From positions 1,004,001 through 1,068,000 of the forward strand of contig NZ_CP111085.1 of NCBI RefSeq assembly GCF_026278345.1: a stretch of 64,000 nt of DNA, written 5' to 3'. The notes below the pieces were generated by a model. That model was given only the letters and a program-made list of their open reading frames with translations. It was not told the origin of the DNA and made no database searches. Position numbers and translations under genes: made by a program. Shown piece by piece: positions 42,930 to 50,113 of this stretch. Every line of letters starts with the position of its first letter. The stretch's first letter is position 1. This stretch comes from Tellurirhabdus rosea. Its GTDB lineage: Bacteria; Bacteroidota; Bacteroidia; Cytophagales; Spirosomataceae.

Positions 42930-44291
42930 AAAAATGGTGCTGGTCAGGCGGAGGAGTTCGATTTCGGCTACTTTGGCGTTGTATTCGGCATCGATGAGGC
43001 GGGTTTCGGCCGCTACGGCGTTGCGCTGCACATCGCGGAATTCAACGGCGGTGGAGTTGCCGACCCGGTAGCGTTCGAAAGCGATATCGACGTTCTGCCG
43101 GGCGATGTTGAAGTTCTGCACCTCCAGATTCAGCAGGGTCAGGCTGTTCTGGTACTGCGTGAAGGTCTGTTCGAGGGCCGACACCAGTTGCAGGCGCTGG
43201 TCGAGTTCCTGCCGCTCGGCAATCTGGGTGTTGATCTTCGCGTTGTTGATCTGGCGACGCAGGTTGTAGCCGTTGAAAATAGGCACGGCGGCGGTCAGCG
43301 AGTACGTCAGGCCGCGGTTGTGGGCCGTAGCCACGCCAAATCCGCCCTGGTTGTTGATGAACGTCTGGTTGTATCCGGTTGTGATCCCAACCTGCGGCAG
43401 CTGCTGGGCACGGGCAATGCGCACGTCGATATCCGCCAGCCGACGGTTCAGAACGGCCTGCACCAGCAGCGGGTTGTTGCTGACGGCCTGCCGGAGCGGT
43501 TCCAGTTGCAGATCGGTCCGGACCAGAATCGTATCCCGGACGGCAAACTCGGTCAGCGGCTCCCGCACCATCAGCGTATTGAGGACAATTTTGGCGTTTC
43601 GCAGACTCTGTTCCTGCGCAACCAGCGCGGCGCTGTCGGCGTTGTAGTCCACCTGGGCGCTCAGGTAATCCACCCGCGAGCGGGTGCCCACTTCGTAGTT
43701 GGCGCGGGCCAGTTCGAGGCGTTCGCGGGAAATACTGAGGGCCTGCCGGAAGGCAATCAGGCGCTGCAGCTGCCGGATCACGTCGTAGTACGTCGAGGTT
43801 ACGCTGGCGGCCGTAGCTTCCATGTTGGCGCGGGTCGTCACTTCGCTGAACCGCACCAGTTCGCCGAGCCGGTTGTAGTTCAGGCCCCGGTCAAAATCCA
43901 GAATATTGTACGTGGCGTTGAGCCCGACCGTGTTGGTCCGGTTGAAAGCGCCCCGGATTTCCTGGGGCGGCCGGAGGTTTTGCAAAAAGGTCTGGTTAAT
44001 GTTCTGCAGCGAACCGTTGCTGGTGAAGTTCCCGGTGACGATGGGCAGATAGCCGGCCGCTCCCCGGTCGTAGTTGTTGCGGGCGATCTCCTGCTCGGCC
44101 CGCGTGATCTGAATCTGGTAATTCTTTTCAATCGCCGTTTGCACGGCCTGCTGGAGGGAAATCTGCTCCCCCGGCTGAGGAATCGTCGCCACCGTCAGCG
44201 TACGCTGCAACGCACGCTGCATGTTCGTAGGTTGCTGACAATAGGCGGAAAACGGAATCAGGGAAATTAAAAGACCAATAGCTACTTTCAT
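42927..44291 (-). CDS. TolC family outer membrane efflux protein
   Basis: A 454-aa outer membrane channel. Signal peptide ~1-18 (FSAYCQQ); two OEP-like repeats with long alpha-helices: LQQAVQTAIEKNYQIQITRAEQEIARNNYDR and RLADIDVRIARAQQLPQVGI (split here for length), and the alternation of beta-strand and helical stretches found in TolC. Such proteins complete tripartite export systems, but no adjacent MFP or RND pump gene is seen. The ATG at 44289-44291 (ten codons downstream of an upstream ATG) starts the signal peptide cleanly. The stop codon lies in a palindrome. Confidence 0.9.
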   Translation of the reverse strand: MKVAIGLLISLIPFSAYCQQPTNMQRALQRTLTVATIPQPGEQISLQQAVQTAIEKNYQIQITRAEQEIARNNYDRGAAGYLPIVTGNFTSNGSLQNINQTFLQNLRPPQEIRGAFNRTNTVGLNATYNILDFDRGLNYNRLGELVRFSEVTTRANMEATAASVTSTYYDVIRQLQRLIAFRQALSISRERLELARANYEVGTRSRVDYLSAQVDYNADSAALVAQEQSLRNAKIVLNTLMVREPLTEFAVRDTILVRTDLQLEPLRQAVSNNPLLVQAVLNRRLADIDVRIARAQQLPQVGITTGYNQTFINNQGGFGVATAHNRGLTYSLTAAVPIFNGYNLRRQINNAKINTQIAERQELDQRLQLVSALEQTFTQYQNSLTLLNLEVQNFNIARQNVDIAFERYRVGNSTAVEFRDVQRNAVAAETRLIDAEYNAKVAEIELLRLTSTIF

Positions 44292-46374: not shown

Positions 46375-47208
46375 ATGCCCACCGTCGCCCGCCGTCCCAA
46401 GACCTCTGTTCGAACGCCTTTGCGGAAGACGTTTTACCGGATTCTGGAAACGTCGGCGGGGCATCGGCGGGGCTGGAGTCAGGTCTTCAACGGGCTTCTG
46501 ATCACCATTATCTCGCTGAATTCCGTTGCCATTGTGCTGCATACCGTACCGGAGCTGAACCAGCGGTACGAGCAGGTCTTTTACGACTTCGAACTGTTTT
46601 CGGTTACCTTTTTTACTCTTGAGTATCTGCTCCGGGTCTGGGTCTGCGTCGAAAATGACCGATACAGCCATCCGGTCTGGGGCCGGGTCCGCTACCTGTT
46701 TTCGACGGCCGCCATCATCGACTTTCTGGCCATTTTTCCGTTTTACTTCACCCTGTTTGCTACCGATCTGGCCATTGTCCGGATTCTTCGGCTGTTCCGG
46801 ATTTTCCGGCTCTTTCGGGTTACGCGGTATTCGCACGCCTTCAAGGTGATTCGGAATGCGGTGGAGGACAAGAAGGAGGAACTGATTCTAAGCCTGGTGT
46901 TTGTGCTGTTCATGCTCATCATTGTGTCCAGCCTGATGTATTACGTCGAGCACTCGGCCCAGCCCGACAAGTTTTCGAGCATTCCTGCTACCATGTGGTG
47001 GGGCATCAGCGCCATGACGACGGTCGGCTACGGCGATATGCACCCGATTACGCCGCTGGGAAAAGTGCTCGGCGGTCTGGCGGCTATTCTCGGCATCGGC
47101 CTTTTCGCCCTCCCGACCGGTATTCTGGTGTCGGGCTTTACGGAGCAGATTCGCACGCAGAAAGCCCCCACCAAACATCGCTGCCCGCATTGCGGAAAAG
47201 AATACTGA
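46375..47208 (+). CDS. Voltage-gated-type potassium channel
   Basis: A 277-aa inner-membrane channel. Six helices: S1-S3 (~45-65, 78-98, 118-135), a voltage-sensor S4 with regular arginines (VRILRLFRIFRLFRV, ~140-154), pore helix, the selectivity filter TTVGYGDMHP (~217-226), and S6 (LGGLAAILGIGLFALPTGILVSGF). The C-terminus CPHCGKEY has one CxxC pair. The layout is that of a Kv-type channel; its gating is unknown. It begins directly at the end of a palindrome. Confidence 0.92.
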   Translation: MPTVARRPKTSVRTPLRKTFYRILETSAGHRRGWSQVFNGLLITIISLNSVAIVLHTVPELNQRYEQVFYDFELFSVTFFTLEYLLRVWVCVENDRYSHPVWGRVRYLFSTAAIIDFLAIFPFYFTLFATDLAIVRILRLFRIFRLFRVTRYSHAFKVIRNAVEDKKEELILSLVFVLFMLIIVSSLMYYVEHSAQPDKFSSIPATMWWGISAMTTVGYGDMHPITPLGKVLGGLAAILGIGLFALPTGILVSGFTEQIRTQKAPTKHRCPHCGKEY

Positions 47209-47252: not shown

Positions 47253-47669
47253 ATGCCTTCTTCCTTCTCTCACTCTCTGCGCGTTCGCTGGTCCGAGGTC
47301 GATGCCTACGGGGTTGTTTTCAACGGAAACTACCTGAATTATTTCGACGTGGCGATTACCGAATACTTCCGGAATCTGGGCCTTCAGTTCACCAATCCCG
47401 AAGCCATCGGCGGCGAGTTTTACGTCCGCAAGGCCACGCTGGAATATCACGGCCCCGCCCGTTTCGACGATTTGCTGGACATTCAGGTCCGGTGCGGCCG
47501 GATCGGCAACAGCAGTCTCCAGTTGCTGCTGCTCATCACGCGGAACGGTGAACTGCTGGTTTCCGGCGAAATCATTTACGTCAACACCGACCCCGCCACC
47601 CGGACCGCCGCTCCCGTGTCCCCGTCCCTGCGTCAGCGAATCGAGGCTTTTGAGAACCCATCCGACTGA
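47253..47669 (+). CDS. Hotdog-fold acyl-CoA thioesterase
   Basis: A 138-aa thioesterase of the 4HBT/YbgC group. LRVRWSEVDAYGVVFNGNYL (~9-28) includes the catalytic aspartate and the substrate-loop GVVFxxxY pattern, followed by YFDVAITEYFRNLGL. The length is typical. The ATG at 47253 is used; an in-frame upstream extension would overlap the channel gene. It is followed after 81 nt by the PGM1-related ligase, and both may be part of a small-molecule pathway, but this is unproven. Confidence 0.87.
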   Translation: MPSSFSHSLRVRWSEVDAYGVVFNGNYLNYFDVAITEYFRNLGLQFTNPEAIGGEFYVRKATLEYHGPARFDDLLDIQVRCGRIGNSSLQLLLLITRNGELLVSGEIIYVNTDPATRTAAPVSPSLRQRIEAFENPSD

Positions 47670-47750
47670 AAATCAAGTCCCGGGCATGACCGGCGTCATC
47701 ACCTGCCTGCCTTTGCGGCGTTAATTTCCGGCCTGATTATTCCTATTCCC

Positions 47751-49301
47751 ATGCTGGATTTTACGACGACCTCCCCAACCCGTTCGGAAACGGTTTCCGC
47801 GTTTTCTGCCCAGACGCCCTTTCAGCGGCTCCAGCGCCAGATGAGCGCGCAGTTTCGCGATTTATGGACAGACCCGCTGCGGCCCCGGGTGGTGGTGGTG
47901 GTTCCCAGCATCACGCTGGATGAAACGCTAAGCGCGCACCTGCCCGGCGATATTCACTACGAAGAACGGCTGTTGTGTCTCCTGATGCTGCTGCGGCAGC
48001 CCCGCACGCGGCTGATTTACGTGAGCAGTCTGCCCATCGCCCCGGCCATCGTCGATTATTACCTGCACCTGCTGCCCGGCGTTCCGGGGGCGCACGCCCG
48101 CAAACGGCTGACACTGCTAAACTGCCACGACACTTCCGCCCGGCCGCTGACCCGCAAGATTCTGGAACGGCCCCGCCTCATGGAGCGAATCCGGCAGGAG
48201 CTTTCGGAGGAAGCCCCGGCCCACCTGACCTGCTACAATGTGACCGAGCTGGAAGCCCAGTTGTCGGTAGAACTGGGCATTCCGCTGTACGGCTGCGACC
48301 CCGCGCTGCTCCCGCTGGGGTCCAAAAGCGGCAGTCGCCAGCTTTTCCGGGAGGCCGGCGTTCCGCTGCCGGACGGTTCTGAGGATCTTTTCTCCGAAAA
48401 CGAAGTGATTGATGCGCTCGCCGCCCTAAAACGCCGCCAGCCAACGCTCCGAAAGGCCGTTGTCAAACTGAACGAAGGGTTTTCCGGCAAAGGCAACGCC
48501 ACCGTTTCCCTGAGCGATGCGCCGACCGATGAACAGCTGACCGACTGGCTCCGGCAGGAACTCCCCCACCGCCTGCGGCTGGTGGACCACGAACTGACTT
48601 ACGAAACGTTTTTTGCGCAGTTGAAAAGCATGGGCGGCATTGTCGAAGCCTTCATCGACGGCGGTCGCAAAACGTCCCCCTCCGTGCAGTGCCGCATTGA
48701 CCCGCTGGGCGGGGTCTCCGTCATTTCGACCCACGATCAGATTCTGGACGAAGAAACGGGGCAGGAATACCTCGGCTGCCGGTTTCCGGCGGATGCGGCG
48801 TACCACCGCGATCTGGCTGAGGCTGGTCACCGGATTGCCTCCCGCCTGCGGGAACGCGGCGTGCTGGGCCGGTTTGGCGTCGATTTCATGTCGGTCCAGC
48901 AGGCTGACGGAAGCTGGAAGTCGTTTGCCATTGAAATCAACCTGCGAAAAGGCGGGACCACGCACCCGTTTCTGCTGCTCCAGTTCCTGACCGACGGGCA
49001 GTACAACCCGGAAAAGGGCGAGTTTGAACTTCCGAAGGGCGGCCATCTTCACTATTTCGCTTCCGACAATCTGCACAGCGAACGCTACCGCGGCCTGACC
49101 CCCGACGACCTGATGGACATTCTGGTCCTCCACGCCCTGCACTACGACAGCACCGTGCAGGAGGGCGTCGTTTTCCACATGATGGGTGCACTCTCCGAAT
49201 TTGGCAAGCTCGGCGTCACGGCTATCGCCCACACGCCCGAACGCGCCTACGCACTCTACGAACGGGTTGTAGAAGTGCTGAATGGGGAGGTTTTGGATTA
49301 A
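47751..49301 (+). CDS. PGM1-related ATP-grasp peptide ligase
   Basis: A 516-aa ATP-grasp protein. N-terminal domain (~1-180, VVVVVPSITLDETLSAHLPG, then LTLLNCHDTSARPLTRKILE), a pre-ATP-grasp helix (PLYGCDPALLPLGSKSGSR), and the ATP-grasp core (~190-410) with RKAVVKLNEGFSGKGN, VEAFIDGG and the metal/ATP site FAIEINLRKGGTTHPF. The C-terminal ~80 residues (YDSTVQEGVVFHMMGAL, LGVTAIAHTPERAYALY) correspond to the PGM1_C type region. PGM1 ligates peptides to nonproteinogenic amino acids in pheganomycin synthesis. No biosynthetic cluster surrounds it, so the product here is unknown. Confidence 0.85.
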   Translation: MLDFTTTSPTRSETVSAFSAQTPFQRLQRQMSAQFRDLWTDPLRPRVVVVVPSITLDETLSAHLPGDIHYEERLLCLLMLLRQPRTRLIYVSSLPIAPAIVDYYLHLLPGVPGAHARKRLTLLNCHDTSARPLTRKILERPRLMERIRQELSEEAPAHLTCYNVTELEAQLSVELGIPLYGCDPALLPLGSKSGSRQLFREAGVPLPDGSEDLFSENEVIDALAALKRRQPTLRKAVVKLNEGFSGKGNATVSLSDAPTDEQLTDWLRQELPHRLRLVDHELTYETFFAQLKSMGGIVEAFIDGGRKTSPSVQCRIDPLGGVSVISTHDQILDEETGQEYLGCRFPADAAYHRDLAEAGHRIASRLRERGVLGRFGVDFMSVQQADGSWKSFAIEINLRKGGTTHPFLLLQFLTDGQYNPEKGEFELPKGGHLHYFASDNLHSERYRGLTPDDLMDILVLHALHYDSTVQEGVVFHMMGALSEFGKLGVTAIAHTPERAYALYERVVEVLNGEVLD

Positions 49302-49303
49302 AG

Positions 49304-49349
49304 ATTTAACGTAGCTCCGCTTCTCACCATTATACGTTCAACGTTCAAC
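49304..49349. repeat. Short palindrome between PGM1-related gene and ispD
   Basis: TTTAACGTAGCTCCGC on the left and TATACGTTCAACGTTCAACC on the right, with AACGTA/TACGTT complementary. Weaker than the others but with the same words and core fragment (GCTCCGC). The right arm supplies the TGA stop of ispD (49338-49340). Confidence 0.6.
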
Positions 49350-50012
49350 CAAAAAGCTTTCCGCCCACACCAGGTCTTCCGGGGTGGTGATTTTGATGTT
49401 TTCGTAGGCGCCGTCGATGAGGGTGATGGGGAAGCCGGCGTATTCGACGACGGAGGCGCAATCGGTGAAGAAGGGCTGTTCGGGCGTCAGGAAAGCGTTG
49501 CGGAAAAGAGCGAGCTGGAAAGTCTGCGGCGTCTGGATCAGGCGGTACTGCGTGCGGTCGACGGCTTCGCTGCGGCCATCGGGGTGGAGCAGCCGGGCGG
49601 AATCTTTCAGCGGAACACAGGTAACGGCCGAGCCGGTGCGGGCGGCCGTTTCAAAACCGTTCCGGATCATGTCGGTCGTCACGAACGGACGGACCCCGTC
49701 GTGCACGGCCACCAGCCCCTCTTCCGACGGGATGCGGGAGAGGCCGTTCCGCACGGACTGGAAACGGGATGCGCCGCCGGGCGTCACCTCGACCGGCTCG
49801 GCAAACTGATGCGTTCGGCAAAGGTCTTCCCAAACCGGAATCTGGGCTTCGGGCAGTACCAGAATGGGCTTCAGATCGGCCGAATACAGCCGAAAACGCC
49901 GGATGGTGTGCATCAGAATGGGCAGTCCGCCCACCGGCAGAAACTGCTTGGGCATCTCGCTCCCCATCCGGCTGCCGCTTCCTCCGGCAACAATTATGAC
50001 GAATTGATTCAT
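49338..50012 (-). CDS. ispD: 2-C-methyl-D-erythritol 4-phosphate cytidylyltransferase
   Basis: A 224-aa enzyme of the MEP isoprenoid pathway. VAGGSGSRMGSEMPKQFLPV (~8-27) is the nucleotide-binding signature, SRFQSVRNGL (~84-93) and VAVHDGVRPFV (~102-112) follow, and TQTPQTFQLALFRNAF-like IQTPQTFQLA and FFTDCASVVEYAG (~165-185) close the fold. The ATG at 50010-50012 is used, because an in-frame ATG 16 codons upstream would be translated from the palindrome. Bacteroidota use the MEP pathway, so the enzyme is expected to be essential. Confidence 0.95.
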   Translation of the reverse strand: MNQFVIIVAGGSGSRMGSEMPKQFLPVGGLPILMHTIRRFRLYSADLKPILVLPEAQIPVWEDLCRTHQFAEPVEVTPGGASRFQSVRNGLSRIPSEEGLVAVHDGVRPFVTTDMIRNGFETAARTGSAVTCVPLKDSARLLHPDGRSEAVDRTQYRLIQTPQTFQLALFRNAFLTPEQPFFTDCASVVEYAGFPITLIDGAYENIKITTPEDLVWAESFLVER

Positions 50013-50028
50013 GGAAAAAGGAGGAAAG

Positions 50029-50113
50029 GGAGGAAAGGAGGAAGGGGAGGAAAAGAGCAAGGTTATCCGAATGGCTATACCTTGCTCTTTTCCTCCCCTT
50101 CCTCCTTTCCTCC
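50029..50113. repeat. Intergenic palindrome, GGAGGAA word type (35-bp perfect arms)
   Basis: Left arm 50029-50063 and right arm 50079-50113 are perfect reverse complements over 35 bp with a 15-nt loop. The left arm is purine-only except near the centre, the right arm pyrimidine. The right arm supplies the first base of the queA stop codon (plus 50113-50115). It lies between queA and ispD on the minus strand. Confidence 0.93.

Follow-up and report, generated by a model that had tools for sequence, protein, structure and literature searches.

A predicted stand-alone ATP-grasp ligase of the BesA/PGM1 superfamily in Tellurirhabdus rosea, and possible links of some of its relatives to low oxygen

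The ligase locus and its neighbours

The window, by which we mean the whole 64-kb stretch of DNA analysed here, is part of the complete 5.58-Mb genome of Tellurirhabdus rosea, which encodes a single PGM1_C protein. This protein, an ATP-grasp ligase of 516 aa (47751..49301, + strand), was assigned to the BesA/PGM1 superfamily by Pfam, by a sequence match to BesA and by an AlphaFold2 model. Upstream, on the same strand, lie the genes for an ion-channel protein of 277 aa (Ion_trans and Ion_trans_2 in Pfam, 46375..47208) and for a hotdog acyl-CoA thioesterase of 138 aa (47253..47669), the latter identified by Pfam and by its score of 82.4 bits, against a cut-off of 68.7, for the YbgC/FadM subfamily TIGR00051. 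The gap between channel and thioesterase genes is 44 nt, and the two may be co-transcribed; the gap between thioesterase and ligase genes is 81 nt, with no terminator-like site in it. On the other side ispD (49338..50060, − strand, Pfam), convergent to the ligase gene, lies 36 nt past it.

A sequence-only reading of this DNA had pointed to the PGM1_C gene and to the thioesterase gene upstream, and both genes are real. It had also placed the ligase outside any recognisable biosynthetic cluster, with no precursor, carrier or tailoring gene, which agrees with our analysis: the neighbours are the channel, thioesterase and ispD genes, no carrier or tailoring gene adjoins the ligase gene, and none of the short frames near the thioesterase–ligase gap (58 aa at 47548-47724, + strand, overlapping the thioesterase gene; 31 aa on the opposite strand; 17 aa) is an obvious precursor peptide when judged by eye. 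The Rfam models gave no match at gathering threshold between window positions 44000 and 52000. Recent transfer of the ligase gene was rejected as far as composition can tell, since its GC and GC3 are ordinary (GC3 of 0.750 vs 0.723-0.783 in the neighbours).

The same reading proposed the thioesterase as partner of the ligase, a pairing that should recur where the ligase does. We collected 149 loci, 147 of which hold a ligase copy (the window's included), with at least 600 nt of DNA upstream in 142 and downstream in 134. A relative of the thioesterase was found near the ligase in none of the 146 other loci with a ligase copy (tblastn, E <= 0.01), a highly redundant set with about 104 distinct loci beyond the window; the pairing is therefore not conserved, and the thioesterase looks like a bystander. 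Likewise, the thioesterase matched no ORF in 89 other ligase loci, two of them duplicates. Thioesterase, channel, amidohydrolase and ispD genes were all rejected as candidate partners, each occurring in the window alone among these 90 loci (the window and the 89 others). Among 16 family members, one has a close relative of the thioesterase (69%), on a different contig from ispD.

Comparison with close genomes places a boundary beside the ligase gene. A genome of the same genus (G001) and a further one (G017) have the ispD side in common with the window and not the ligase side; in G001, which has no ligase, the common block comprises ispD, queA and two further genes. Synteny with G001 breaks between the ligase gene and ispD (window 49301-49338), through either an insertion or a rearrangement. 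Two other family members with the ligase have different neighbours, namely an acetyl-CoA hydrolase gene in L022 (L022:1210-2592, Pfam) and a cytochrome-c-like gene in L202 (by eye). An acetyl-CoA hydrolase/transferase-like gene also lies near the ligase in L202 (3549-4862, by eye); the window has none.

Sequence, fold and core residues of the ligase

PGM1/BesA-type ligases are known from natural-product clusters. The enzyme class proposed earlier, a PGM1-related ATP-grasp ligase, holds, as both Pfam domains score above their cut-offs: PGM1_C (PF18105, residues 453-506, 49107..49268, + strand) at 42.9 bits vs a curated cut-off of 22.5, C-terminal to the ATP-grasp domain, and ATP-grasp_IQCH at 89.1 vs 27. 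The nearest solved sequence is BesA, the L-propargylglycine--L-glutamate ligase of Streptantibioticus (Streptomyces) cattleyicolor (PDB 8yi6, NCBIfam NF042917), which is about 30% identical to the ligase and was matched at E 2.3e-46 with the single sequence, at 3e-59 with a profile of 10 clade members and at 3.2e-67 with one of 89 rows. The match spans nearly the whole length of the ligase, in sequence as in structure.

An AlphaFold2 model built from a 77-row alignment had a mean pLDDT of 91.5, with values below 50 for residues 1-20; as the first 20 or so residues are disordered, the true start may be slightly downstream. In VIA-align the model matched BesA with Z 42.8 (447 residues, rmsd 2.1), followed by 3wvq (Z 32.0, 407 residues, rmsd 2.9) and 3wvr (Z 31.7), which we take to be PGM1, and by the Streptomyces ATP-grasp peptide ligase 8ynd (Z 29.9), whereas purK and other ATP-grasp enzymes reached Z of about 22 or less. 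The whole-length fold is common to the ligase, BesA and 3wvq/3wvr. The 8ynd/8ynq enzyme has the same fold (Z 28-30) at about 18% identity, with a borderline sequence match (E 0.044).

The core of the enzyme is conserved. The ligase and BesA both have E72-R73, K192, K239, G248-N249, E299, HDQ 328-330, FP 345-346, DF 378-379 and E395-N397-R399; K192, K239, E299, H328-D329-Q330, E395, N397 and R399 are also invariant in the 89 aligned rows, and we assume their roles to be catalytic. The segment KLNEGFSGKGNA (residues 239-250, 48465..48500, + strand), in which K239, G246 and G248 are invariant in the 89-row alignment, we call the glycine-rich loop, presumably equivalent to that of other ATP-grasp enzymes. 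HDQ is encoded at 48732..48740 (+ strand). Towards the C-terminus, EINLRKGGTTHP (residues 395-406, 48933..48968, + strand) contains E395 and N397, which we expect to be the Mg-binding positions. From its fold and conserved core, we expect the protein to be catalytically active, as a ligase of the BesA/PGM1 superfamily.

The ligase is nevertheless distinct from both characterised enzymes. It has EINLRKGGTTHP where BesA has EINLRKVGPSH, and EFGKLG where BesA has ACGFVE (near 483-488); its gene has no adjoining alkyne-amino-acid cluster genes, and it scores 163.4 bits against a cut-off of 750 for the BesA equivalog NF042917, so that the substrates of BesA need not apply to it. The kinship with PGM1 suggested by the sequence-only reading stands in so far as the PGM1_C domain and the overall fold (Z about 32) are common to both; by sequence the nearest characterised enzyme is BesA, itself a carboxylate-amine ligase, and 3wvq/3wvr, at about 18% identity, fall outside the sequence-profile matches at E <= 10. 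The outcome that the reading had named as its refutation is half borne out: homologues show no link to the thioesterase, and the enzyme they group nearest to is BesA. PGM1 of pheganomycin biosynthesis, reportedly described by Noike et al. in 2015, is to be recognised by a precursor and a guanidino-amino-acid pathway in its cluster and by closest sequence kinship to PGM1; neither was found for the window ligase, which has no ribosomal precursor, guanidino-amino-acid or NRPS genes nearby.

Distribution and gene neighbours of the ligase family

The ligase gene is rare around the window. Of the 59 nearest genomes, none but the window's own carries it; counting that genome, it was found in 9 of 395 genomes of the phylum and in 5 of 395 of the class. 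When 219 genomes were sampled from the family of L022, a Spirosomataceae MAG, 2 had the gene. It is missing from the one same-genus genome searched. Given this rarity and the absence from the same genus, it is no housekeeping gene here.

More widely, at least 557 relatives were found among at least 580 pattern matches in genome_contigs, with alignment A2 as query; the single ligase protein as query found none. The best 80 of the 557 were taken, at 50-60% identity, and come from Bacteroidota, Rhodothermota, Alphaproteobacteria, Gemmatimonadota, Acidobacteriota, Actinomycetota, Planctomycetota, Myxococcota and Ignavibacteriota, many of them MAGs. Most members of the stand-alone clade (L011 and L014-L101) are 49-58% identical to the ligase over the whole length. 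Phage or viral copies were considered and set aside, as viral_contigs gave no relatives with patterns from one sequence only. One relative, at 35% identity (L160, in G851), has a single in-frame TAG.

In a tree of 92 rows (a quick LG+G4 search, with four outside rows on long branches), 88 rows, the window's included, form one starred clade. The copies from S. cattleyicolor (L134, presumably BesA), Nonomuraea, Robbsia and Streptomyces lie outside it. Phylum labels cluster on the tree, with 11 changes vs 30.4 when shuffled, as expected for mostly vertical descent. The window row falls inside a starred set of 49 rows, nearly all of them Bacteroidota, its nearest row being L022 (59% identity), a pairing without support. 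By its sequences, then, the ligase clade is a large uncharacterised branch of BesA/PGM1 ligases that appear to stand alone, without a cluster, across many phyla, and in the open-licence literature we recognised no study that treats it. The distant PGM1-related gene of Robbsia andropogonis plasmid p3 (L012:3332-14036) lies beside genes for an inosamine-phosphate amidinotransferase, a SIS-domain protein, an aldehyde dehydrogenase and an EctB-like aminotransferase, a set that looks like a real biosynthetic cluster.

The neighbours of the relatives are scattered over many families, 62 Pfam families for the upstream genes of 64 loci and 80 for the downstream genes of 65, which argues against any general partner of the ligase. 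In Bacteroidota there is no conserved partner. The commonest upstream families are AnmK and AstE_AspA_cat (8 of 64 each); the AnmK adjacency, seen in Chitinophagaceae, is probably inherited synteny. A gamma-glutamyltransferase gene follows the ligase gene in three genomes of one branch; such a gene lies just downstream at L015:2206-3909 and L026:11531-13288. A wax-ester-synthase-type gene lies upstream of the ligase in L026 and L041.

In Pseudomonadota, 9 of 20 loci have a gene of the aspartoacylase/succinylglutamate-desuccinylase type directly upstream of the ligase (gap of -4 to 56 nt), and one more has it 2.5 kb upstream. The alphaproteobacterial examples directly upstream are L036:8918-9991, L037:8891-9961, L052:8739-9842, L054:1001-2068, L073:8843-9910, L075:8826-9887, L083:13-1185 and L084:5644-6717. 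Eight aligned copies of the encoded protein have invariant H65, E68 and H151, presumably zinc ligands; its model is of moderate quality (pLDDT 73.6), with desuccinylases and aspartoacylases as best matches at a TM of only about 0.5. An aspartoacylase-type partner elsewhere in the window's genome was also considered and rejected, as the alphaproteobacterial protein has no match there (G000); a weak match (E 3e-6) occurs in 1 of 19 genomes.

The ligase gene of a few Rhodothermales is embedded in cbb3-oxidase operons. In L042 (Rubricoccaceae, L042:13-13769) the order is COX1, FixO and FixP (cbb3 subunits), FixG, a universal stress protein (USP), ligase, CHAD, Na/Pi cotransporter, PPK2, PPK2 and P-type ATPase, and in L014 (5072-14131) it is FixP, FixG, USP, ligase, USP, P-type ATPase and FixS. 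A ligase gene directly between FixG and FixI/FixS is seen at L186:2-5042. When 114 genomes of the order of L042 and L014 were sampled, 20 had the ligase. Within the flanking stretches examined, 5 of these have cbb3-type genes near it (G787, G1196, G1210, G1194 and G1207, the last by a 46% match at a contig end) and 6 have USP genes (G787, G1196, G1194, G1192, G1184 and G1185); one or the other is present in 8 of the 20 and neither in the remaining 12, some of which have short flanks. G1210, G1194 and G1192 are additions to our first locus set.

In Rhodobacter capsulatus the FnrL regulon includes PPK2 and a USP gene (PMC4634722), which prompted us to search for FNR-type boxes. Scanned directly ahead of the ligase, 88 loci yielded 5 loose matches vs 1.3 expected and 2 strict ones vs 0.56, a weak signal when taken alone, which became clear once the head of the aspartoacylase–ligase operon was used instead. 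Of 19 Pseudomonadota operon heads preceded by 150 nt or more, 8 have an exact TTGAN6TCAA and 12 have it when one mismatch is allowed; these heads are not independent, because the species are related. The corresponding counts are 3 and 13 among the 614 other ORFs of these loci that reach 150 aa. The box is the most conserved block upstream of 8 aligned aspartoacylase-led operons, and is present in 8 of the 10 such operons for which upstream DNA suffices (exactly in 5, with a single mismatch in 3; that of L083 stops at 12 nt) vs neither of the 2 new ones on replication. It is also present in all three members of the L028/L049/L061 branch. An exact box is missing from the remaining 8 of the 19 heads, one of which, L100, has a box with a single mismatch.

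The box replicated poorly. When 377 genomes were sampled from the order of L075, 11 matched: 4 had been in the set from the start (L075, L073, L052 and L089), one was a 35% relative with an in-frame TAG, and 6 were new; 2 of these 6 have an aspartoacylase-type gene upstream and no box, and 4 have neither. Among 368 genomes of the order of L061 there was no further close copy, only that of L061's own genome and a weak match of 66 residues.

Some members of the stand-alone clade thus have aspartoacylase-type hydrolase, USP, cbb3-oxidase, PPK2 or gamma-glutamyltransferase genes beside the ligase, whereas the window has none of them. No cbb3 or USP gene adjoins the window ligase, and the 64 kb contain no exact TTGAN6TCAA box vs 0.96 expected by chance. 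The window ligase may be under other low-oxygen control; our results suggest that the low-oxygen link is a lead for some branches, while the window itself bears no mark of it.

Proposed activity and alternatives

We consider it likely, from sequence and model, that the window encodes one ATP-grasp carboxylate-amine ligase with an intact catalytic core, a member of the BesA/PGM1 superfamily within a stand-alone clade that works without a biosynthetic cluster. ATP would phosphorylate a carboxylate, for which the analogy with BesA points tentatively to the side chain of glutamate or aspartate, or to some other small acid. An amino acid or small amine would then attack the acyl phosphate through its amino group, leaving an amide, ADP and phosphate. 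Other reactions of ATP-grasp enzymes are thioester formation, phosphorylation and carboxylation. We infer the substrates and the product, and likewise that the enzyme makes a small molecule and not a tag on a protein.

A different use of the same fold, in which the enzyme would modify protein or tRNA by adding an amino acid to the macromolecule, as RimK- or CDC123-like ATP-grasp enzymes do, would suit a single-copy stand-alone gene, and PMC4431377 predicts that stand-alone ATP-grasp ligases of the R2K clade tag proteins. We regard this as very improbable, as the best match in both sequence and structure is a small-molecule ligase and no ribosomal or translation gene recurs among the neighbour families listed (the first 25 of the 62 upstream and of the 80 downstream). 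A true pheganomycin-like ligase, which would couple an unusual amino acid to a peptide, ribosomal or free, and have its precursor encoded elsewhere in the genome, is unlikely too. The PGM1_C domain and the presence of 3wvq/3wvr, taken to be PGM1, among the fold matches speak for it. So does the occurrence of PGM1 homologues in RiPP clusters (PMC13417212). However, the sequence searches do not reach 3wvq/3wvr, whose Z of 32 compares with 42.8 for BesA, the window has neither cluster genes nor an evident precursor, and the clade has no cluster genes in common.

The short gaps, common strand and lack of a terminator-like site would fit a unit of two or three genes, in which the thioesterase, perhaps with the channel, provides or cleaves off an acyl group and its product is coupled by the ligase to give a small acylated amino acid or peptide. 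Conservation makes this highly improbable: the 146 other loci, many of them redundant, lack a thioesterase relative beside the ligase (142 of the 147 have at least 600 nt upstream), the two other family members with the ligase have different neighbours, and the same-genus genome keeps only the ispD side.

Within the stand-alone ligase reading, the relatives suggest a more specific role, which we hold only tentatively and think rather unlikely as a whole. The clade would be a low-oxygen or energy-stress enzyme that makes a small amide, such as a gamma-glutamyl or beta-aspartyl amino acid, when respiration falters; the FNR-controlled aspartoacylase-type partner of Alphaproteobacteria would break the same bond, and the window gene would be a sporadic Bacteroidota carrier without the partner. 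The kin alone suggest a role for the amide at low oxygen or under energy stress, and likewise that the alphaproteobacterial hydrolase breaks what the ligase makes.

For the window itself the result is modest: it holds one orphan enzyme at an ordinary-looking locus, and its thioesterase neighbour can be set aside. What is of interest is the ligase branch. If some members of the clade take part in the response to low oxygen, there is an amide metabolite still to be discovered, and the cbb3 operons that enclose the gene, together with the FNR-type boxes, would point to a concrete growth condition and to genetically accessible strains, such as photosynthetic Bradyrhizobium, in which to look for it.
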